Source: Verrucomicrobiaceae bacterium (GTDB lineage: Bacteria > Pseudomonadota > Gammaproteobacteria > Pseudomonadales > CAMLJR01). From it: a stretch of DNA of 64,000 nucleotides. The DNA lies in contig JAQGNY010000010.1 in NCBI GenBank assembly GCA_028293825.1, positions 1 to 64,000 of the forward strand. The letters run 5' to 3'. Shown here piece by piece: positions 22,767 through 32,718 of this stretch. Both the position numbers and the translations under genes were made by a program. The notes beneath the pieces are model-generated. The model had not been told where the DNA came from. It did not search any database and saw nothing but the letters and a program-made list of their open reading frames with translations. Numbering within the stretch: position 1 is the stretch's first letter; each line of letters opens with the position of its first letter.

Positions 22767-22851
22767 GCCCAGGTGGTGAAATTGGTAGACACGCTACCTT
22801 GAGGTGGTAGTGGCGTAAGCTGTGCTGGTTCGAGTCCAGTCCTGGGCACCA
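22767..22851 (+). tRNA. tRNA-Leu (anticodon GAG)
   Basis: An 85-nt tRNA with acceptor stem GCCCAGG / CCTGGGC, an encoded CCA end, anticodon stem CTACC / GGTAG around loop TTGAGGT (anticodon GAG), a long variable arm typical of Leu, and the T-loop GGTTCGAGTCC. It lies directly after secG. Its 3' end is the attachment site of the element that follows and is intact on this side. Confidence 0.96.
22828..22851 (+). repeat. attL (tRNA-Leu 3' end)
   Basis: GTTCGAGTCCAGTCCTGG then GCACCA: the T-loop to CCA of tRNA-Leu. It is repeated at 32511-32533, which lacks one G. Confidence 0.85.
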
Positions 22852-22898
22852 ATAGTATGTTTTTAGATGACTCTGAATGATCTAAAAACCCAGAAGAG

Positions 22899-22922
22899 CC
22901 CCGCCAAGTGCGGGGTTTTCTG
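22899..22922 (+). terminator. Intrinsic terminator after tRNA-Leu (element-borne)
   Basis: CCCCGC-CAAGT-GCGGGG followed by TTTTCTGTTT. It lies inside the element just past attL and so replaces the tRNA's own downstream terminator, which now sits beyond attR at 32557. Confidence 0.7.
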
Positions 22923-22963
22923 TTTCTGGTGTATGTGAGTGCATCTGTACAGGTTTAAGGTTT

Positions 22964-22988
22964 AGGGGTATGTTCTAGGGTATGTTTA
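22964..22988 (+). promoter_or_regulatory. Candidate integrase arm-type sites, left side
   Basis: Two adjacent imperfect direct repeats, AGGGGTATGTTCT (22964-22976) and AGGGTATGTTTA (22977-22988). They resemble two AGGTTGTGTTTA copies beside attR (32477, 32497), as expected of arm sites for one integrase. Confidence 0.4.
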
Positions 22989-23011
22989 GGTTCGATTGAG
23001 AACGTACCCCT

Positions 23012-24334
23012 ATGCCGCGCACTGTTGTACCTCTATCTGATACCAAATGCGAAGCTGCAAAGCCCCGCGAACGTGAATGGAAGCTATCGGACGGTGAAGG
23101 CCTTTTCCTCCTTGTAAAACCCACTGGCGTCAAAACATGGCGCTTCAAATATGTCAGGCCGGATGGCCGCGAAGGGCTCGCGACGTTCGGGAAGTACCCC
23201 GCCTTAAGTCTGAAGGCAGCACGCGAGCGCAGAGCTGAGGCAAAGACTTGGCTTGTACATGGAAAAGACCCGGTCGAGGAGATGCGAGCCGGAAAGCGTA
23301 GAGCTGCTTACGATGGCAGTGACACGTTTAAGATGCGCGCGCTCGAATGGCATGCCGCAATGGCTCGCAAATGGACTGAGGGCCATGCACAGGCGGTTTT
23401 ACGCCGAATGGAGATGCACCTTTTCCCCGCGTTGGGCAGTCGGTCAATTGGCGATATCAAGGTTCGCGATCTGCTCGCGCCGTTGAAGGCAGTAGAGCAG
23501 AACGATGCACTGCATCTGGCTGCGCGCTTGCGCCAATACTGCACCGCCATCATGCGCCACGCTGTTCAACATGGCTTCACTGAGAATAATCCCGCGCGTG
23601 ACCTGGTGGGCGCTACCGCCACCGGCAAAACGAAACACCGTCCTGCGCTGCCGCTGGAGCGTTTGCCTGATCTGCTACAGGCGATTGGTAGCGATCGCGG
23701 TCGACCGCTCACTATTCTCGCCTTGCGCCTCTCTTTGTTGGTTTTCATTCGCAGCTCTGAATTGCGCTTTGCGCGCTGGAGTGAAATTGATCTCGATCGT
23801 GCCATGTGGACAATTCCAGCCGAGCGGGAAGAGGTCAAGGGGGTGAAGAACTCTTCCCGCGGCTCAAAAATGCGCACGCCGCACCTTGTCCCGCTAAGCC
23901 GCCAAGCGCTCAATGTGATCCAGCAGGTTCACCAGTTCACAGGCCCATTTGATTTCGCCTTCGCTGGTGACCACGATCCGCGCAAGCCAATGTCGGAAAA
24001 CACTGTAAACAAAGCGCTTCGGCGCATGGGCTTCGATACACAAAACGATGTGTGTGGGCATGGTTTCCGCACGATGGCGTGTTCTTCATTGGTTGAGTCC
24101 GGATTGTGGTCGCGCGATGCCGTCGAGCGCCAGATGAGCCACCAGGAGCGCTCAGGCGTGCGCGCAGCGTACATACACAAAGCCGAGCACTTGGATGAGC
24201 GTCGATTGATGGTTCAGTGGTGGGCCGATTATCTCGATGCGAATTCGCACGAACACGTCACGCCGTATGACTTCGCTCATCGCGGTAAGGGTGCGAAAAA
24301 TATCGTGAAGATTTCGAAGAAAAAACACGCCTAA
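23012..24334 (+). CDS. P4-type tyrosine integrase
   Basis: A 440-aa site-specific recombinase that integrates and excises the element at tRNA-Leu. The N-terminal DUF4102-type arm-binding domain (LSDGEGLFLLVKPTGVKTW) is followed by a SAM-like core-binding domain and the catalytic domain: Arg in FIRSSELRFARW, HGFRT as the His-x-x-Arg box and Tyr in RAAYIH. It starts at ATG 23012, where one arm of an inverted repeat overlaps the start codon and no Shine-Dalgarno is visible. It is transcribed away from the tRNA. Confidence 0.95.
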   Translation: MPRTVVPLSDTKCEAAKPREREWKLSDGEGLFLLVKPTGVKTWRFKYVRPDGREGLATFGKYPALSLKAARERRAEAKTWLVHGKDPVEEMRAGKRRAAYDGSDTFKMRALEWHAAMARKWTEGHAQAVLRRMEMHLFPALGSRSIGDIKVRDLLAPLKAVEQNDALHLAARLRQYCTAIMRHAVQHGFTENNPARDLVGATATGKTKHRPALPLERLPDLLQAIGSDRGRPLTILALRLSLLVFIRSSELRFARWSEIDLDRAMWTIPAEREEVKGVKNSSRGSKMRTPHLVPLSRQALNVIQQVHQFTGPFDFAFAGDHDPRKPMSENTVNKALRRMGFDTQNDVCGHGFRTMACSSLVESGLWSRDAVERQMSHQERSGVRAAYIHKAEHLDERRLMVQWWADYLDANSHEHVTPYDFAHRGKGAKNIVKISKKKHA

Positions 24335-24360
24335 TATTTGGGGCGAAGTGAGTTTAAGTT

Positions 24361-24963
24361 ATGTCCAAAAAACCCTCAAACACCTCAGTTCCACTACCTA
24401 TTTTTTTCCGTCATGTAACGCCTAATAAAAAACTCAGGGCGCTACCGGAAGCGCCAAAGCTCACGCTCTTCGTGGATGAGGCTGATACAGTCGAAAAACT
24501 CACGATGCTAGCGGAAGACGCCGAAAAGTTTGCGAGCACTCCATACACTACGATCGATGATCCACTTCAGGCCACTCCCGCTACGCTTTGGCGTGATGCC
24601 AGAGTGATTGCCAAAAGGGCTCGCGAATGCATTCATCTCGTCATAGGAAATGGTGGTGGGCTCGATCTCTTAAGCGCGGGATATGAGTTAGGTCGATTAA
24701 TCGAGCAATCGCAAAAAACTATTGAGGCGTGGGAAGCGTTGAGACAGAAAAAATCGAATCGCCAGCAGAGAGTGGATGCGGCAGCGGATAGAAACGCTGA
24801 AATTCGATGTGCCGCAGTTAGGGAGTGGCTTGCGCGAGCTCCACACAAACGAGGTGACAAAAAGGCATTCGCGCACGAAATCTCAGAGCGTTATCCAATC
24901 TCGTTTATAACGGTCTATGACGATTGGTTGAGCAAAGAGAGTATTAAACGATTTAGTGCCTAA
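24361..24963 (+). CDS. Hypothetical protein of the element
   Basis: A 200-aa protein not recognised. It starts 26 bp after the integrase. It has no signal peptide or membrane segment. A long helical stretch (about 95-150) is rich in Glu, Arg and Gln, and the C-terminus (KAFAHEISERYPISFITVYDDWL) looks like a small helical, perhaps DNA-binding, unit. Its place between integrase and AlpA suggests a role in excision or regulation, but that is inference. Confidence 0.6.
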   Translation: MSKKPSNTSVPLPIFFRHVTPNKKLRALPEAPKLTLFVDEADTVEKLTMLAEDAEKFASTPYTTIDDPLQATPATLWRDARVIAKRARECIHLVIGNGGGLDLLSAGYELGRLIEQSQKTIEAWEALRQKKSNRQQRVDAAADRNAEIRCAAVREWLARAPHKRGDKKAFAHEISERYPISFITVYDDWLSKESIKRFSA

Positions 24964-25049
24964 ATTACCCTCCCTGCGCGCAATCGGGGTAGTTCTTTAA
25001 ATAACCATGTGAATAATTGGGTGCACCTCTAACGAACGGTGCATTCCAA

Positions 25050-25268
25050 ATGAACGAAATCCCTGTCAATCAAATGCTTTTGCGCATGAGTGCTGCTTGT
25101 CGCGCTCTCGACACCTCACGCAATGGTCTTCGTCTCCTGCAAGAAAAATATCCAGACTTCCCGCGCGCGCTGAAATTTGGATCGACCCGCCAGGCAGCAG
25201 TTTACTTCGACGCTGTGGAGCTTCGCGCATGGATTGAGCAGCGTAAAGCGGCGAGGGATGCCCAGTGA
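25050..25268 (+). CDS. AlpA-like helix-turn-helix regulator
   Basis: A 72-aa protein starting at ATG 25050. The segment MSAACRALDTSRNGLRLLQEKYPDFPRALKFG...YFDAVELRAWIEQRKAA has the layout of AlpA/MerR-like winged helix proteins that bind the attachment region or activate element genes. Such regulators commonly accompany P4-type integrases and can act as excisionase regulators. The stop overlaps the next gene's GTG, starting a coupled run of three genes. Confidence 0.7.
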   Translation: MNEIPVNQMLLRMSAACRALDTSRNGLRLLQEKYPDFPRALKFGSTRQAAVYFDAVELRAWIEQRKAARDAQ

Positions 25269-25645
25269 CAACTTCCCATCGTCGCGCGCCAGCGTTCGCA
25301 AAAAAATTTGGGCTCTCAAATCGGCAGCGCTCAGAAAGCGGCGCTTGGATTTTTCTCGGCGCCTGGTCAGCAGCGAACAGTCTCTCTCGATCGGGGTTAC
25401 GCCGGGTACTGTGTGTGCCACCTGGCGAAGATCCGTTGCAATTCGATTGGTCAATTCTTCGCGATTGTCATGCGGTTGTTTGGCTGTACGCGCCGATCGA
25501 TGTTGATGCACTCGCGGTTGTCCTCCGTGCGGCCGGCGCACTCGACCTCTCCTTTTTTGATGCTGTTTCGCGGCAATTTCTTAGGTTGGCACTTACTACA
25601 AAATCTGAACAGCTACTTGCTGAAATCAAAGCGGAGTCGCGATGA
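25265..25645 (+). CDS. Hypothetical protein coupled to the RepA-like ATPase
   Basis: A 126-aa protein of unknown family. GTG at 25265 overlaps the previous stop, and its own stop overlaps the ATG of the ATPase (ATGA), which is why I chose this frame over two overlapping alternatives. The middle has LRDCHAVVWLYAPIDVDALAVVLRAAGA, a possible small alpha/beta fold. Small genes just before replication ATPases on such elements are often accessory replication or regulatory proteins; that is inference. Confidence 0.6.
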   Translation: MTTSHRRAPAFAKKFGLSNRQRSESGAWIFLGAWSAANSLSRSGLRRVLCVPPGEDPLQFDWSILRDCHAVVWLYAPIDVDALAVVLRAAGALDLSFFDAVSRQFLRLALTTKSEQLLAEIKAESR

Positions 25646-26892
25646 AAATTCCAGCAGGCGAGATCCAGCGAAAAATCGACGCCGATTCGGACTTGCGTAG
25701 GATTCAAGCGCAATCGAGCTCCCCTACGGTCGAGCTAGGTCACTCTCATGTCGATCTGGTGTGCGCTGCCGATATAAAGCCGGAGCCAATTCGGTGGCTA
25801 TGGCCTGGCTGGTTCGCTCGCAAGAAGTTGGCGATTCTCGCGGGTGTGGCTGGTACTGGTAAGACCACGGTTGTTATCAGTCTTGCTGCAACGCTGACCA
25901 ATGCCGGTCGCTGGCCCGATGGTAAGCCGTGTCGCATCCCCGGCAATGTATTGATATGGTCGAGCGAGGATGATCCGGCCGACACGCTGATTCCGCGATT
26001 GATTGCAGCCGGTGCCAATCTGAATCGCGTGCATATTATTCAAGGTGCGGTCGCCTCAGATGGCGAGTCAGTACCGTTTGATCCCGCAAACGATATTGCG
26101 ATGTTGCATCGCGCTGTTGACAAGCTTGGCGGCGCTGCATTGCTCATGGTCGATCCGATCGTTTCCGCTGTCGGTGGCGATATGCACAAGGCCAATGATG
26201 TGCGGCGCAGCTTGCAAGCCCTAGTAGATTTCGCTGCGGCACTTGATTGCGCAGTGATCGGTATCAGTCACTTTGCGAAGGGTAGCAAGGGGTCATCGCC
26301 CCAGGAGCGCGTCATCGGCTCTCAGGCATTCTCCGCGCTCGCACGCACGGTGTTGGTATGTGCCAAACAGGAAGACGGCGAAAGCCACGTGTTGGCGCGG
26401 GCCAAGTCGAATATCTCTCAGGACGATGGCGGTTTTTCCTACACCATCGAGCCGGCCATGGTCGACGAAAACATTGAGACCACTCGCATAAAGTGGGGGG
26501 GCTCTGTTGAAGGTAGTGCTCGCGAAATTCTGGGCGCGGTCGAGTCCGAGCCAGAGAGTTTTGACGGCGATCTAAGCGATGACGCGGCCAACATACTGCG
26601 CGACATTCTGCACCTTGGGGAGATGCTGAGCCGAGATGTTAAGGGCCAGATGCGGCAGGAGGGCTTTTCCGAAAAAGTTATCCGCACTGCTCGCGAGCGT
26701 CTGAGCGTGATTGCTCGTCCTGAGGGATTCGGGAAGGATCGCAAAACCTTCTGGAGTCTGCCCAGCTCTCCATATATGCCCGCAAGCCTCATAGATGCCC
26801 AGCAAAAGAAGAGGGCACATATGGGTGTCGAGGGCATGTATGGAGCAGACGCTGAGGAGTTCGACGTATCAATTCCGCGATCGATTTTTTAA
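25642..26892 (+). CDS. RepA-like RecA-fold ATPase / helicase (AAA_25)
   Basis: A 416-aa NTPase. Walker A is GVAGTGKTT (about residue 72) and Walker B ALLMVDPIV (about 170); ISHFAKGSKG fits the sensor region, and the layout matches the AAA_25/RepA helicases of plasmids and phage satellites. It probably unwinds the element's origin during replication. The C-terminal part (about 300-390) looks like a winged-helix tail (LSRDVKGQMRQEGFSEKVIRTAR). The stop TAA at 26890-26892 lies directly after a run of six T; a docking-domain frame continues in the -1 frame across it. Confidence 0.85.
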   Translation: MKIPAGEIQRKIDADSDLRRIQAQSSSPTVELGHSHVDLVCAADIKPEPIRWLWPGWFARKKLAILAGVAGTGKTTVVISLAATLTNAGRWPDGKPCRIPGNVLIWSSEDDPADTLIPRLIAAGANLNRVHIIQGAVASDGESVPFDPANDIAMLHRAVDKLGGAALLMVDPIVSAVGGDMHKANDVRRSLQALVDFAAALDCAVIGISHFAKGSKGSSPQERVIGSQAFSALARTVLVCAKQEDGESHVLARAKSNISQDDGGFSYTIEPAMVDENIETTRIKWGGSVEGSAREILGAVESEPESFDGDLSDDAANILRDILHLGEMLSRDVKGQMRQEGFSEKVIRTARERLSVIARPEGFGKDRKTFWSLPSSPYMPASLIDAQQKKRAHMGVEGMYGADAEEFDVSIPRSIF

Positions 26893-26912
26893 ACCAACTT
26901 CAGTCGATAGGA

Positions 26913-27296
26913 GTGCATGTAACTGCAAAAGGCGAGCGTTTACACATAAAGGCGCCGCCAGGAACGATTACACCATCACTCCGCGAGCAGCTGGTTTCCC
27001 ATAAAGCCGATTTGTTGCGACTGCTTGTGAATCATTCGCCCGCATCATCCGTGGCTTGCACGCTTGTTACGGCTGTTACGTCACAAAACGACAATGGCGG
27101 CAAAGTAATCGACCTTCGCAGCTACCTTGCGAAACTTTGCCAACGCCTACCGCTGCCGCCCGAGCATTTGCTTAAACATTATTTTACCGCCGACGATTTG
27201 GCCGACATTCGTGCTGGCTGTTATCCAGATCCACACGCGCTAGCGCGATTTATCAAAACAGACCCGCGCTATCCGTTCGGCGGGGCTACGAGCTGA
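26913..27296 (+). CDS. TubC N-terminal docking-domain-like protein, start uncertain
   Basis: The first part matches the TubC_N docking fold: LNQLQSIGVHVTAKGERLHI, then a PPGTITPSLREQL loop and a HKADLLRLL helix. The domain begins upstream of the only usual start (GTG 26913): the frame is open from 26856, and residues encoded from about 26877 already fit the fold, yet there is no ATG, GTG or TTG there. Either a rare start codon is used, or ribosomes slip back one base at the six T at 26885-26890 and fuse it to the ATPase. The C-terminal half (about 60-127) is unrecognised. TubC-like small proteins are known next to replication genes on mobile elements. Confidence 0.6.
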   Translation: MHVTAKGERLHIKAPPGTITPSLREQLVSHKADLLRLLVNHSPASSVACTLVTAVTSQNDNGGKVIDLRSYLAKLCQRLPLPPEHLLKHYFTADDLADIRAGCYPDPHALARFIKTDPRYPFGGATS

Positions 27297-27345
27297 CCCG
27301 AACGTATTCAAAATTAAAACTTATCAACTACGACGAGGTGTAACT

Positions 27346-27627
27346 ATGAATTTTATTCCTGACGATAACCCAATCGAATTAACCGAGCTGACCAATGAGT
27401 TCAAGACGAACTCGATCATGCTCATGTTTCGGTTTTTGCAGAATCTTCCAGCCGAGACCAGAGCAATTTTAATTCGGCTTCAGGAGCAGAAAGATTGGCG
27501 CGCAGGCTTGGAATTAACTATCGATAAACATGACCAGGGCAGCATATGTATGGTGATGATCTCGCAAGAGGGCGAGCGTAAGGTGATTGCAACTATTGCC
27601 GAAGGTTCGCCACAAAATGCCCATTGA
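27346..27627 (+). CDS. Hypothetical small protein of the element
   Basis: A 93-aa protein with GAGGT upstream of ATG 27346. It is acidic, with a helix (SIMLMFRFLQNLPAETRAILIRLQEQKDW) followed by beta strands. No family is recognised. Its stop codon lies within the loop of an intrinsic terminator, so it closes the replication-side transcription unit. Confidence 0.6.
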   Translation: MNFIPDDNPIELTELTNEFKTNSIMLMFRFLQNLPAETRAILIRLQEQKDWRAGLELTIDKHDQGSICMVMISQEGERKVIATIAEGSPQNAH

Positions 27628-27641
27628 GGCATTTGTTTTTT
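27615..27641 (+). terminator. Intrinsic terminator overlapping a stop codon
   Basis: AAATGCC-CATTGA-GGCATTT followed by GTTTTTT. The stop codon of the upstream gene is inside the hairpin. It isolates the replication module from the capsid module. Confidence 0.75.
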
Positions 27642-27777
27642 CAGTTACAATAACTTCCAGTCAAAGCCTGCGCGATGCAGGCACTCTGACCACTTCACCC
27701 GCGGTGCGCGATGCCCGCCGAAGTCGAATAGAAAGCGCAAATTGCGTTTTGTTTTCACTTTGGCGAGAACGTTGTTA

Positions 27778-28437
27778 ATGACACCGCAGTTTTCACTCCC
27801 TCTGTTTGAAATTCGTTCGCAGCCGCAAGGCCGTATCGATGGTTATGCTTCCGTGTTCGGGGGTGTTGACTCGTATGGCGACACTATTGCGCCTGGCGCT
27901 TACGCACAATCTCTCGCTGCGTATCGTGCCAGCGGCAATGCTCCGGCAATGCTGTGGTCACATCAAATGGATGCGCCTATCGGTCGCTGGCTCGCGCTGA
28001 AAGAGGATGCGCGAGGCCTGCGCGTCGAGGGTCAACTAAATCTAAAAACGGATGCGGGCGTGCAAGCTTTCGAGCATTTGCGTGCTGGCGATATTAGCGG
28101 CTTGTCGATCGGCTTTCGCGTTGCCAAAGGCGGATCCGAAACAGTCAATGGAGTGAACGTTCTCACCGAAATCGATTTGATGGAAATTTCAGTAGTGGCG
28201 CTGCCAGCTGATTCTGGCGCACGTGTCACGTCTGTAAAACAAATCCAACCAATCAAACCCACCACAAAACGCGATCTCGAAAAAGCATTGCATGCGCTCG
28301 GCTATTCACGCCGAGAAGCCACCCAAATCGTTACACGCGGCTTTACCGACTTCGATGCGTTTGAAGCGCTTGAAGCCGAGAAGCTTGCCAACATTGTTGG
28401 CGCGCTCAAATCCGCCACTAAAGTTTTCTCTAATTAG
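27778..28437 (+). CDS. HK97-family prohead protease
   Basis: A 219-aa serine protease that trims capsid subunits during head assembly. The family pattern is clear: GYASVFGGVDSYGDTIAPGAY at the N-terminus, catalytic His in LWSHQMDAPIGRW and Ser in GLSIGFRV. The ATG at 27778 is used because the domain begins there. It precedes the capsid gene by 10 bp, the usual order. A C-terminal extension (EKALHALGYSRREATQIVTRG) resembles scaffold-like tails of such proteases. Confidence 0.92.
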   Translation: MTPQFSLPLFEIRSQPQGRIDGYASVFGGVDSYGDTIAPGAYAQSLAAYRASGNAPAMLWSHQMDAPIGRWLALKEDARGLRVEGQLNLKTDAGVQAFEHLRAGDISGLSIGFRVAKGGSETVNGVNVLTEIDLMEISVVALPADSGARVTSVKQIQPIKPTTKRDLEKALHALGYSRREATQIVTRGFTDFDAFEALEAEKLANIVGALKSATKVFSN

Positions 28438-28447
28438 GAGTTTTATT

Positions 28448-29563
28448 ATGGAAGCCGAATTAATTTCTGAAATCAAAAAATTTAGTGATACCGCGTCCGC
28501 GCGTCTCAACGAAATTCATCAACAACAAATCCTTTTGAAGGAGCAGGTTCGCGAAATCGAGCAGAAACAAGTGCGCAGCACTCATCTAGCACCAAGAGCG
28601 AATGGGAATTTAACGTTTAACAAGGATTTCCTTAACGAAGAAAGTTTCGCAAAATTCCGATCAAGGGCGGTCCAGTCCACTGAACACTACAATCTCGCGC
28701 AAGGCATTAAAGCGCTTGTTGGTGTTGATACGGGTGATAGCCCCGCGTCAGTTTTCCCTGTGGCACCGGATCGTGCGGCCGGCGCTTATTACCAGGGTGG
28801 CGTACGTCAGTTGCGTTTGCTGAGTCTGTTGCCGGCGCTGCCGGTCAGCTCGAATCGTTATGAGTTTGCGCAGCTGAATTCGGACGGTGATGCCGCTGCA
28901 CAAGCGGACGAAGGCGACGAAAAAGCCGAAATCATTTTCGATGGCGAGCTTGCAAGCACTCCCATTGCGACGATTGCTGTTCACACTACCGCAAGCGCGC
29001 AGGTGCTCGATGACGTTGCGGGGCTCGACGCGTTGCTGCAGCGCATCATGACCTACAAGGTCCAAGACAAGCTCGAAGCTTCGCTCATTACTGGGAGTGG
29101 GACTGCAGGTAATATCGACGGCTTGTATACGCAGGCAATAGCGATCACAACAGCGCAGACAAAACCGGCTGATCGTATCGGTGAAGCCCAGTACAAAATG
29201 CAGAACGACGGCTACGAGCCGAATGTCGTGCTGCTTAATCCTGCCGATTGGTTTGCTATCAATGTGACTGATAACCTTCAGGAGGACTATGTGTATGGCA
29301 GTCCAGCGGTACCGCGCCCCAACTCCTTATGGGGCATGCCGGTGGTGACGAGTCCGAGCGTCCCTGTAGGCCGCGCGCTAATCGGTGATACCAATCAGAC
29401 GAACTTCCTCGATCGTATGCAGCCCACGCTGTACCTCACGCGCGACCACAAAGACTATGCGACTCGTAACCTTGTACTGATCCTTGTTGAGCTGCGTGCT
29501 GGTCTGGCTCTATACGATGCGCTGGCGTTTCGCAGAGTTGATCTGGAAGCGCGCTCTGGCTAA
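28448..29563 (+). CDS. HK97-family major capsid protein
   Basis: A 371-aa capsid subunit starting at ATG 28448 (AGGAG 7 bp before). The first about 60 residues are a helical, charged delta-domain-like region (scaffold, normally cleaved). The body has family features including AGAYYQGGVRQLRLLSLLPALPVSS, ATSAQVLDD-like segment in HTTASAQVLDDVAGL, and the late LWGMPVVTSPSVPVGRALIGD. Having an adjacent protease argues against an encapsulin. No portal or terminase gene is found in the element. Confidence 0.92.
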   Translation: MEAELISEIKKFSDTASARLNEIHQQQILLKEQVREIEQKQVRSTHLAPRANGNLTFNKDFLNEESFAKFRSRAVQSTEHYNLAQGIKALVGVDTGDSPASVFPVAPDRAAGAYYQGGVRQLRLLSLLPALPVSSNRYEFAQLNSDGDAAAQADEGDEKAEIIFDGELASTPIATIAVHTTASAQVLDDVAGLDALLQRIMTYKVQDKLEASLITGSGTAGNIDGLYTQAIAITTAQTKPADRIGEAQYKMQNDGYEPNVVLLNPADWFAINVTDNLQEDYVYGSPAVPRPNSLWGMPVVTSPSVPVGRALIGDTNQTNFLDRMQPTLYLTRDHKDYATRNLVLILVELRAGLALYDALAFRRVDLEARSG

Positions 29564-30041
29564 TCATTCAATTGCAGTGCACCCCCATGCCTCTAAATAA
29601 TTCCATAGGGGTAGGGGGTGCAAAAGTCTCGGACTATTTCACCGGAAACCGTCGCCCCAGTCTTTTTTTCACGCGGTCAGGTTAGAAAAAAGCTGTTTTT
29701 TTGGATCGCAGTCAGAGCGATAAATTGTAGGGGCTTAAATTCGGGCTTAGGCTTTTCGGCCATAGCCGACGAATAGTTCGCCAACAAAATTTGTTCGGAT
29801 CAATTTCTTGCGCGATTCCGTCAGGCTGATCCCACATCATGGATTAGCCTGACTACTAATGGCCAATTATGGCTAGGCGAATGAGCTCTTTGTGCGATCT
29901 GGATGCGATTGAGCGCGAATAAGTCTCATAAAGATGGCTGAGGGTATCTCTTGACCTTCGTTGGGGGCGGCCTTACTGTTCCTGCTCTACAATCTTCACA
30001 TCCATATAATCAGCAAACTCGTTCAAATCATTAGGCAGAAA
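29564..30041. promoter_or_regulatory. Regulatory gap between capsid and cargo operon
   Basis: This 478-bp gap has no gene I can support. It holds three structures: a long stem TGCACCCCC / GGGGGTGCA (29579-29623, with inner CCTCTA / TAGGGG) without a T run; an odd-centred palindrome AACAAAATTTGTT (29783-29795); and a 13-bp inverted repeat GTCAGGCTGATCC / GGATTAGCCTGAC (29820-29853). A TATAAT box lies at 30005-30010, 32 bp before the next gene. The region looks like a dedicated control region for the cargo. Confidence 0.5.
30005..30010 (+). promoter_or_regulatory. Candidate -10 box of the cargo operon
   Basis: A perfect TATAAT. No good -35 is seen at 17 bp (TGCTCT), so the promoter may need an activator or be an extended form. 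Confidence 0.35.
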
Positions 30042-30917
30042 GTGGACAGCACTCGTATTCAACCTGTTGGAGGCGATCACGCGATCGAAGTTATGGCGAT
30101 CGGCGTGGAATGGGTTATGCCGCCTCTTGACGATGGGCAAATTGCTTCGCTGCAAGCGGTGTACGAAGCCAGCGATGCTCTTAAAGGGTTTCTGCCGACG
30201 CTGACGCCAATGCAGGCTTTCGTGCTCCAAGGCATCAACCAGCCCTTGGTTGTCGACCCGAACGGAAACCAGCAGCTTGCGCCTGCGAATGTTATGCCCC
30301 CTCAGTTCATTGGACGCAACGGCGGGTTCGACCTGCAGCGCTTGGACGCCACGGGCAAAGCTACTTGGATTGCCTCAATTCGACCTGAGTTTATCTCGGT
30401 AAACTGCACCGCGTACGACCGCTGGAAGAACGTCAAACCCCAGGCACTGGAGATCCTGCGGCCGTTCTTGGATGTAGCAATGGCCAATGGCGCTAAGGTT
30501 AATGCGATCGGCCTGCAGTACCAAGATGCATTTCGGTTATTGGATGGAGCCTCTCCGGCAGCAACTGGGCAGCTCTTTCGCATGGACGGCAAATACATCC
30601 CTAAGCACCTATTTGAGCAGCCTTCTTTCTGGCATTGTCACCAAGGCTGGTTTTCGACGGCACCAGATGGACGCCGTGTTCTCAACAACGTTGCGACTGA
30701 CATAACCGATGTCAATGGCGCGCACTTTGCGCGTATCGGCGGCCAGCACCGAATGTTTGCGACTTCGGTCGATGGACTGACCCCTATGCCAATCACTGCA
30801 GGAGAAATCGACCAGATCCTGCAATGCCTACATAACGAAAACATTGATGTGATTAACGCGATCCTCAGCGATGGCGCGCTCAGGGCAATCGGCTGCACAG
30901 GGGAAACACATGAATAG
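30042..30917 (+). CDS. TIGR04255-like protein, cargo gene 1
   Basis: About 291 aa from GTG 30042 (AGG 7 bp upstream); a TTG at 29961 would add a hydrophobic stretch that overlaps the likely promoter. The segment TAYDRWKNVKPQALEILRPFLDVAM...AIGLQYQDAF follows the TIGR04255 pattern, a sporadic family of unknown function found in accessory regions. No catalytic motif, membrane segment or signal is visible. Its stop overlaps the next gene's ATG (ATGAATAG). It is the first gene of a tight three-gene operon at the right end of the element, where satellites carry cargo. Confidence 0.65.
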   Translation: MDSTRIQPVGGDHAIEVMAIGVEWVMPPLDDGQIASLQAVYEASDALKGFLPTLTPMQAFVLQGINQPLVVDPNGNQQLAPANVMPPQFIGRNGGFDLQRLDATGKATWIASIRPEFISVNCTAYDRWKNVKPQALEILRPFLDVAMANGAKVNAIGLQYQDAFRLLDGASPAATGQLFRMDGKYIPKHLFEQPSFWHCHQGWFSTAPDGRRVLNNVATDITDVNGAHFARIGGQHRMFATSVDGLTPMPITAGEIDQILQCLHNENIDVINAILSDGALRAIGCTGETHE

Positions 30918-31554
30918 CAACTCAGCTTTACCTGAGGGGTCTGCATTTTTGACCACGTCGCTAGCGAGCCCTCGCCAGTCGACGCCTACACACTCGACGG
31001 CGTACGTTGTCGGTGAGTATTTCATTTCGGTCGCCGGGCCTATGGCAAAGTCCGATATCGACTACTTGGTGTCACCCATTGCGCAGATCTGTATTCAGAT
31101 CAATGCTTGGTTGAGCCGTTTTGGCAGTCAGACAGTCGTTGAAACCGTGGACGCAACCTTGTTGGTCGCCCCACTTGGCCAGATTCCCCAGGAATACTTC
31201 GACTCTTACGAATCCATCTTCAAGGCGGTAGAGTTCTATCGAACAAGTGTGGGGCACCGGACGGGTATGGCCGCCGATGTGCCTTCGAAGGAGCAGAAGA
31301 ACGCTGCGCTGTTGGGTTTGGCCAACCTAATTTTGGCTCGGATGCCAGCGCCGTCGCCGATGTTTTTGGAAGACGGGACAGTCGGTGCCTACTGGCGTCG
31401 TGGTCTGTGCTACGCCAGCATAGACTTTGAAGTTGATGGTGAGCACAGTTGGGCGGGAACCGACGGCACGAATTATATTTCGGGGACTTGGAAAGTGCCC
31501 GATGAACCGTTGCCCCCTGCGCTCATTAGCGAATTGCTGTCGATCAGCTACTGA
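30910..31554 (+). CDS. Unrecognised protein, cargo gene 2
   Basis: A 214-aa protein with ATG at 30910 overlapping the previous stop. It has no membrane segment or signal. The C-terminal third has a pattern of strands with Gly and Trp (MFLEDGTVGAYWRRGLCYAS, then DGEHSWAGT), possibly a small beta domain. I do not recognise the family. Coupling to genes 1 and 3 suggests one functional unit. Confidence 0.65.
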   Translation: MNSNSALPEGSAFLTTSLASPRQSTPTHSTAYVVGEYFISVAGPMAKSDIDYLVSPIAQICIQINAWLSRFGSQTVVETVDATLLVAPLGQIPQEYFDSYESIFKAVEFYRTSVGHRTGMAADVPSKEQKNAALLGLANLILARMPAPSPMFLEDGTVGAYWRRGLCYASIDFEVDGEHSWAGTDGTNYISGTWKVPDEPLPPALISELLSISY

Positions 31555-31562
31555 GGGCGGCC

Positions 31563-32234
31563 GTGAGCTTTTACGATCTTGACAGCGAGTCGAAGCTGCC
31601 GCCCGTGGAGCAACTTGTTGCGAAAGACATGGACGGCGCGAAACAAACCGAGAAAATGTCCGAGTACTCCCCTGGGCCGGTGGCTGACGACGAACTGCTG
31701 GCAAGAAGCCTCGACTACCCGAACAAGCTCACTGCCCAGGGCGGCGTAGACGATTCGTTGTTCCAAGAGGCGTTTTCGCACGGAGCTTCGGCTCAGCGTC
31801 TCCTCGATGGCTGGGACGCGCACGCTTCTGAAGTGCATGGGCGATTCGAAGGACGGGCAGAGCAGCGACGTAAAGGTACCGATGGTCGCAACCCGGATCC
31901 CGAGAACCTCTATGTCGGCGCGTTCCATATGACTGCCGCCGAACTGCGGGCATGCAAGCTTGACGACGATACAGCGTCTAGGGTTCGTGTCTACGATCGT
32001 GGCGACGCTTCAGATCAACTGCACGCAGAAATCATCGTCGACGCGACCGGCTTGAGGAAGCCTCAACGCAAAGAGCTGCGCGTGCGGCTTATGATTCTGG
32101 CGCAGCGGCGCGGATTATTTGTCTCGCCGTATTTGCCGAAGGAGAATCTCAGTCGCGCCGAGGGGACGCAGTGCGAGTTGCACTTCCCACTTGCCGCCCA
32201 CGTAGGCGATGGCAAGCTGCTGAATTCAGAATAG
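31563..32234 (+). CDS. Unrecognised protein, cargo gene 3
   Basis: A 223-aa protein from GTG 31563, 8 bp after the previous stop, with GAGG just upstream. The N-terminal half is acidic and probably flexible (about 1-100). The C-terminal part has a strand-helix pattern (LHAEIIVDATGLRKPQRKEL, then RVRLMILAQRRGLFVSPYL) that may be a compact alpha/beta domain. No motif is recognised. It ends the cargo operon; attR is about 280 bp downstream. Confidence 0.65.
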   Translation: MSFYDLDSESKLPPVEQLVAKDMDGAKQTEKMSEYSPGPVADDELLARSLDYPNKLTAQGGVDDSLFQEAFSHGASAQRLLDGWDAHASEVHGRFEGRAEQRRKGTDGRNPDPENLYVGAFHMTAAELRACKLDDDTASRVRVYDRGDASDQLHAEIIVDATGLRKPQRKELRVRLMILAQRRGLFVSPYLPKENLSRAEGTQCELHFPLAAHVGDGKLLNSE

Positions 32235-32476
32235 GGCGTGGCGGCAGTGGTCGATACGCGCTCTCTGATCTGCTGCCTGTGTCAGACGACTTTGGGTCTA
32301 GCCCTCTTCGTTATGTAGAAGTTCGCTGCTGGTAAGATGCAGCGAGAGCCGACCGCGAAGGCCGAATTTGAATCAGTTAGAAAATGGGCTTTAAGCTTTG
32401 CACCTTCACTATTAGCTTAGCCTGGTAGTGGCAATTTAGGGGTTCGCTTAGGGGTCTTATTAATAATCTAATTATC

Positions 32477-32508
32477 AGGTTGTGTTTATAATCATTAGGT
32501 TGTGTTTA
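32477..32508 (+). repeat. Candidate integrase arm-type sites, right side
   Basis: AGGTTGTGTTTA occurs at 32477-32488 and 32497-32508, 20 bp apart and 3 bp from attR. It shares 10 of 12 bases with AGGGTATGTTTA beside the left end. Confidence 0.45.
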
Positions 32509-32510
32509 AA

Positions 32511-32533
32511 GTTCGAGTCCAGTCCTGGCACCA
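32511..32533 (+). repeat. attR (degenerate tRNA-Leu 3' end)
   Basis: GTTCGAGTCCAGTCCTGG then CACCA, the same as attL except that one G of the acceptor strand is missing. No tRNA body precedes it. It marks the right boundary of the element. Confidence 0.85.
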
Positions 32534-32556
32534 TTTTGAAGTCTGCCGATTTTCGC

Positions 32557-32596
32557 AGACATAAAAACCCCGCTTAATTGCGGGTTTTTTATGTCT
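32557..32596. terminator. Strong bidirectional terminator beyond attR
   Basis: Arms of 17 nt (AGACATAAAAACCCCGC and GCGGGTTTTTTATGTCT) with one mismatch and a TTAATT loop. It probably is the original terminator of the secG-tRNA-Leu unit, now cut off by the insertion. Confidence 0.75.
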
Positions 32597-32718
32597 TGCA
32601 TTTAGGTTTCACGCCGTGGAGTTGTCGAGGTCGGCGTTTTTATTCTGCATGCGTAACTTGCATCTCGAATAAATTCAGCGGTGGTGACCCCCTGCAAAAG
32701 TACGCGTTGCGAATTTAT

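Follow-up and report, generated by a model that had tools for sequence, protein, structure and literature searches.

The described systems that come closest to the locus analyzed here are the toxin-antitoxin-chaperone (TAC) modules. In CmdTAC, an ADP-ribosyltransferase (ART) is set free when the chaperone is drawn away by a phage capsid protein (PMC11618068). Our locus, a trio of co-directional genes, resembles CmdTAC and other TAC modules (PMC11618068, PMC5105189) in its link to phage and in its three genes, for which an ART-like effector, an antitoxin, and a third protein acting as stabilizer or sensor are proposed. It differs in that its gene 1 product shows no likeness to SecB among the structural matches listed, and in that the resemblance of its gene 3 product to an effector is weak. 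The order of genes in TAC modules is toxin, antitoxin, chaperone, and would be reversed in the trio if gene 3 encodes the toxin and gene 1 the stabilizer. A further comparison is with RES-Xre, represented by VPA0770-VPA0769; RES toxins are NAD-using enzymes (PMC12457610). VPA0770 is one of the structures that match the model of gene 3 weakly, but the invariant residues are R-E-S in RES proteins and R-S-H in the gene 3 family, and gene 2 has no match to a helix-turn-helix family.

A relation in sequence exists to PDC-M32A and PDC-M32B, which PADLOC lists as predicted phage-defense candidates and for which the literature searched gave one passing mention and nothing functional. By profile comparison, gene 2 of the trio is a remote homolog of PDC-M32A in its C-terminal part and gene 3 is one of PDC-M32B, and the two stand in the same order. 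PDC-M32A, however, is a single protein of about 375 residues, and its N-terminal region (about 250 residues) has no counterpart in gene 2 (214 residues in total). Canonical PDC-M32 pairs also lie inside type I restriction-modification (R-M) operons and, in the loci read, have no TIGR04255 gene, unlike the trio, whose gene 1 belongs to that family. For TIGR04255 itself no function is described in the literature searched, and neither its three-gene organization nor the swapping of gene pairs reported below was found there.

The trio and its host element

The window, that is, the whole stretch of 64,000 nucleotides that was analyzed, carries on its forward (+) strand gene 1 (30042..30917; 291 aa, GTG start), a TIGR04255 protein; gene 2 (30910..31554; 214 aa, ATG start), with a C-terminal domain designated LEW; and gene 3 (31563..32234; 223 aa, GTG start), a remote PDC-M32B relative. 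Genes 1 and 2 overlap by 8 bp and a gap of 8 bp separates genes 2 and 3, just as a first-pass annotation made from the letters alone had laid them out, and the start codons of all three align across four close homologs.

The trio sits in an element of about 9.7 kb (22828-32528) integrated in a tRNA-Leu gene, whose ends are an 18-bp exact direct repeat of the 3' part of the tRNA. The attL core (22828..22845, +) falls in the 3' part of tRNA-Leu gag (22767-22851, ARAGORN) and the attR core (32511..32528, +) lies 277 bp 3' of gene 3. Between them are encoded a tyrosine integrase (23012..24334, +; Phage_integrase 57.6 bits, Arm-DNA-bind_3 83.8, Phage_int_M 94.3), a prohead serine protease (27742..28437, +; Peptidase_S78 110 bits, phrog_80 180 bits), an HK97-type major capsid protein (28448..29563, +; Phage_capsid 98.7 bits, phrog_10 160 bits), and an AAA_25 ATPase. 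No portal, terminase, or tail genes were seen among the ORFs of these 9.7 kb. The element has the integrase, att sites, and capsid gene by which capsid-encoding satellites are recognized, and lacks a complete set of tail and lysis genes. It is either such a satellite or the remnant of a prophage, and if the former, may be an unusually minimal one. The trio begins 480 bp 3' of the capsid gene and ends 277 bp inside the right end of the element, so that its placement at the right end of something phage-satellite-like, proposed earlier, is confirmed by the att repeat and by the integrase, protease, and capsid genes.

Recurrence of the trio

The complete trio occurs, in the same order, in an IMG/VR prophage contig (L033) and in two metagenome-assembled genomes, one from Gammaproteobacteria (L035) and one from Burkholderiales (L036). 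Separate searches with each gene led to these loci. Viral-contig scans with gene 1 and with gene 2 converged on a single IMG/VR contig (L033/L034), in which gene 3 adjoins, and a scan of genome contigs with a gene 3 alignment found L035 and L036; scans with gene 3 as a single sequence were empty, and a two-sequence alignment was needed as the query. Plasmids and phages searched by tblastn yielded no match to gene 1 or gene 2, and plasmids none to gene 1 of two related loci (L063 and L060). Protein identities to genes 1, 2, and 3 of the window are 76, 67, and 71% for L035 and 58, 52, and 61% for L036 (BLASTP), and 56, 48, and 61% for L033 (global alignment). From a reading of its ORFs, L033 is situated in a P2-like prophage. 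In L035 and L036 the trio stands between housekeeping genes, without a visible phage element, and in L035 a C5 DNA methylase and an SNF2-like helicase lie upstream of serS and the trio. The description of the three genes as a cargo operon is borne out, and they recur as a unit in other genomes and in mobile elements. In L033, as a separate observation from the reading of ORFs, the trio is preceded (L033:1-4015) by a PAAR-like protein and by repeated genes that resemble effector and immunity genes of type VI secretion.

All three genes are coding sequences subject to purifying selection, with dN/dS values, from a comparison of the window with L035, of 0.19 for gene 1, 0.19 for gene 2, and 0.21 for gene 3. 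DNA homology with L035 (75.8% over 2253 bp) starts at 29937 and runs to about 32183, which takes in the trio and 105 bp upstream of it. Since the block in common consists of these parts only, it looks like a compact transferable cassette, and the conserved upstream stretch (29937..30041, +) fits a control region that moves with the genes. The trio had been credited with its own control region and a -10 box; the former is in keeping with this conservation, while for the latter a consensus scan of the + strand from 29560 to 32600 gave no match to a sigma-70-like site.

The position of the trio next to a capsid gene raises the idea that it is a satellite-specific tool that exploits or limits a helper phage, through packaging, capsid size, or interference, rather than a general defense. 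Besides the distance of 480 bp, relatives that by reading of ORFs lie in P2-like prophages (L033 and L070) or beside a terminase (L074) agree with such a role. We nevertheless consider it improbable. The chromosomal copy in L035, with 67-76% protein identity, has no phage genes nearby, and no protein of the trio matches a head, tail, or packaging family. Furthermore, no relative of the capsid gene of the element, present in a single copy in this genome, was found in the viral contigs, from which it follows that the two do not travel together.

Genes 2 and 3 are remote relatives of PDC-M32A/B

Searches of Pfam, NCBIfam, PADLOC, and PHROGs returned nothing credible for genes 2 and 3, the top match being to Pfam for gene 2 (E 0.16), and direct comparison with the PADLOC models for PDC-M32A and PDC-M32B gave no match at E<=1. 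To this extent the earlier statement that the two genes match no family holds. It fails for profile-profile comparison, which ties both to PDC-M32A/B by way of a large class of TIGR04255 operons. In that class gene 2 has the signature LPxxWDG...DGxIxLEW and gene 3 the signature DDExLxR...AF...LSV...HA, and PADLOC assigns the former to PDC-M32A (C-terminal part only, about 250-360 of 375) and the latter to PDC-M32B. We refer to the two as the LEW and M32B families.

A first comparison by hhalign, with families of seven members, was too weak (E 0.0019 for gene 3 and 0.24 for gene 2). Subsequent comparisons, with larger families, align residues 116-182 of gene 2 with the LEW family at E 4.6e-5 and residues 40-158 of gene 3 with the M32B family at E 4e-5, against 0.15-0.31 for cross-family controls. 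With a larger M32B family, the E-value for gene 3 is 1.9e-9 over 131 columns, as compared with 0.24 for the best of 30 column-shuffled controls. An iterated HMM built from gene 2 of L070 retrieves gene 2 of the window, and one locus, L063, forms a bridge, in that its gene 1 matches that of the window at E 1e-27 while its genes 2 and 3 match both groups. The C-terminal DGxIxxxW (LEW) domain of gene 2 is homologous to the C-terminal part of PDC-M32A. Judged by these alignments, genes 2 and 3 are new, divergent, remote relatives of the predicted defense candidate PDC-M32A/B, and the search for remote homologs turned up these defense-candidate relatives and no ordinary metabolic or structural family.

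A hydrophobic N-terminal segment of the "chaperone addiction" sort was considered as a feature of every gene 2 and rejected, as a strong peak occurs in only 19 of 44 and gene 3 controls are similar.

TIGR04255 operons carry matched, exchangeable gene pairs

The suggested resemblance of gene 1 to TIGR04255 proved correct; residues 103-283 score 48.6 bits, above the curated NCBIfam cut-off of 30, and hhalign against 26 TIGR04255 proteins gives E 9.1e-8. The motif WHxxQGWF (residues 197-204) is conserved, and gene 1 of the window is placed in a distinct WHxxQGWF clade of the family. TIGR04255 genes are sporadic, being found in 34 of 369 and 29 of 398 genomes sampled (about 7-9%).

A TIGR04255 gene is usually the first in an operon of two or three genes, with gene 2 overlapping or abutting it and gene 3 next, an organization that the window fits. 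When the gene 1 alignment served as the query, IMG/VR contigs yielded eight more operons (L069-L076), all with genes 1, 2, and 3 in this order. As read from their ORFs, three adjoin integrases (L069, L071, and L072), L070 is in a P2-like prophage, and L074 adjoins a terminase. Their third gene is M32B-like in L070, L071, L073, and L074 and encodes a HEPN protein in L069, L072, L075, and L076. Among other TIGR04255 loci, 44 of 57 have a third gene of recognizable class, and both HEPN and PIN occur as replacements for gene 3. On reading, the HEPN proteins that take this place lack the canonical Rx4-6H motif.

Among typed loci, the type of gene 2 tracks the type of gene 3. LEW proteins are paired with M32B in 21 of 21 cases, HTH proteins with a class designated QG/CD in 11 of 11, and the HEPN-partner type with HEPN in 5 of 5; a short-partner type of gene 2 goes with QG/CD in four loci and with HEPN in one, the sole mismatch among typed pairs. 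Cognate antitoxin-toxin pairs would be expected to behave in this way. The class of the third gene changes at least 8 times on the gene 1 tree, against 25 with shuffled labels, a count that is approximate because the tree was built quickly and has long branches. The starred clade to which the window belongs (15 members in the gene 1 tree) contains both M32B and HEPN third genes. Matched pairs that can be swapped behind a constant protein are what would be expected of toxin-antitoxin or defense modules with exchangeable effectors.

QG/CD is our label for a large unnamed family with the signature QGD...S(Q/N)(T/S)CD, which supplies the third gene in 21 of 57 TIGR04255 operons (HTH-type, L003-L067) and whose N-terminal pattern may resemble that of MazF/PemK proteins. 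In L004, L006, L039, and L040, the third gene has HLAWH...GLTCATF motifs and looks like an NlpC/P60-type cysteine peptidase.

Linkage to restriction-modification and other defense genes

PDC-M32A/B pairs lie within apparent type I R-M operons in four loci (L117-L119 and L121). In L119 the pair lies between HsdM and HsdS, the flanking genes being confirmed by matches to PDB sequences, and in L126 a PDC-M32 module stands beside an AAA ATPase. Such locations suggest that a PDC-M32A/B module can also guard an R-M system. At E<=1e-12, 257 PADLOC models were matched near TIGR04255 operons and 27 in control regions, an enrichment that is suggestive only, because models and not proteins were counted. 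The comparison covers 138 proteins near 20 TIGR04255 operons (together with L035) and 139 control proteins from the same contigs; it is inflated by the redundancy of R-M models, and the neighbor set includes five L035 genes that were picked knowingly.

The insertion of PDC-M32A/B between hsdM and hsdS, along with the C5 methylase and SNF2-like helicase upstream of the trio in L035, could be taken to mean that the trio is an accessory of DNA restriction or modification, a regulator or booster of R-M rather than a toxin module. We rank this last among the alternatives, as very unlikely. There are no R-M genes beside the trio in the window, L033, or L036, and HEPN and PIN proteins, as replacements for gene 3, suggest effectors directed at RNA.

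More serious is the view that the trio is a plain addiction module, with gene 3 as toxin, gene 2 as antitoxin, and gene 1 as stabilizer, which retains in the chromosome the element that carries it and for which protection from phage is absent or incidental. The trio is found in an integrated element and its relatives in prophages, its gene 2/gene 3 pairs are matched, and TIGR04255 is sporadic (34 of 369 and 29 of 398 genomes), all as such a module would have it. What speaks against it is that the trio in L035 and L036 stands amid housekeeping genes with no visible element to stabilize, that type I R-M operons contain related gene 2/gene 3 pairs, which points to defense, and that a constant third subunit is rarely needed by addiction modules. 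On balance we regard simple addiction as rather unlikely, but as the foremost of the rivals, ahead of the helper-phage function and then the R-M accessory.

Predicted structures of genes 1 and 3

Twenty-four members of the gene 3 family were compared. R48 and H154 are present in 24 of 24 and S76 in 23 of 24, and the AF2 model, which is confident (pLDDT 83.8, pTM 0.80), puts these residues on predicted strands 45-51 (R48), 75-80 (S76), and 154-159 (H154). A Foldseek search with the model gave no match, and the viral structure library was uninformative. A second structural look ranked folds of the ART class first, though with weak scores (S1 of pertussis toxin, Z 3.8 over 114 residues; the mART domain of SdeA, 3.4; the RES toxin VPA0770, 2.9; C3larvin, 2.5), so that the fold of gene 3 is possibly of the ADP-ribosyltransferase/RES class. 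ART enzymes keep R/H, S/Y, and E at three strand positions, to which the strands bearing R48, S76, and H154 correspond, and in this the sequence lends the resemblance independent support. The full triad is absent from gene 3, in which the third invariant residue is H154 and E156 is not conserved across the family; because the third residue is His and not Glu, we do not file gene 3 as an ART.

Profile searches found no relatives of genes 1 and 3 among PDB sequences. The AF2 model of gene 1 is likewise confident (pLDDT 88.2, pTM 0.81) and shows a duplicated alpha+beta fold. Its top structural match is a spermine synthase domain (Z 8.7 over 99 residues), and its others are to guanidino kinases, AdoMetDC, and TBP, at the level of common arrangements. 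SecB is not among the structural matches listed, although gene 1 may still be SecB-like in structure. Because the fold gives no clear match, a sensing or chaperone role for gene 1 is put forward as an analogy.

Proposed function of the trio

Since the trio recurs intact and its genes 2 and 3 are related to predicted anti-phage genes, it is probably a self-contained, toxin-type defense module. More specifically, we give a probability of roughly one half to the reading that it is a mobile, three-part, toxin-antitoxin-like abortive-infection module against phage, which travels as cargo of a capsid-encoding satellite (or remnant prophage). Gene 3 would be the effector enzyme, using the Arg-Ser-His triad on its three strands to alter or use up some essential molecule. 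Gene 2 would be the cognate antitoxin or adaptor, whose C-terminal LEW domain keeps gene 3 inactive. Gene 1 would be a constant sensor or scaffold that stabilizes the pair and frees the effector once a phage product engages it, compare CmdC. What the analysis establishes is a conserved co-directional operon that recurs as a unit and is under purifying selection, the homology of genes 2 and 3 to PDC-M32A/B, and gene 2/gene 3 pairs that co-vary and are swapped behind TIGR04255; toxicity, neutralization, and sensing are inferred from this anatomy. An anti-phage role, offered at first on the grounds that satellites often carry such systems, gains from the defense-candidate relatives in PADLOC and from their R-M operon context; an effect of the trio on phage is still something that we infer.

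A broader interpretation, which we advance tentatively and hold to be possible rather than probable, is that bacteria have an undescribed, modular immune system of three genes with TIGR04255 as its constant sensor, behind which matched antitoxin-effector pairs are swapped among PDC-M32-like R-S-H enzymes, HEPN, QG/CD, and possibly PIN and NlpC/P60-like proteins. The trio in the window would then be a divergent subtype borne by a satellite, and its toxin would be of a new kind, using NAD or modifying RNA. There is a real chance that this wider TIGR04255 system is new altogether. In either case, an orphan family is tied to a repeated operon logic, a constant gene with a swappable cognate pair, and to suspected defense genes, and becomes directly testable as a defense or toxin-antitoxin system; the trio in the window offers a compact test case of 2.2 kb with predicted key residues.

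Other features of the host element

One gene of the element (window 26913-27293) contains a TubC_N docking domain (39.7 bits). The name of this domain comes from peptide synthetases, and its role in a satellite is not obvious. At the other end of the element, just to the right of attR, the terminator-like hairpin CCCGCTTAATTGCGGG is followed by T6 (window 32569-32584) and reads as a bidirectional terminator.
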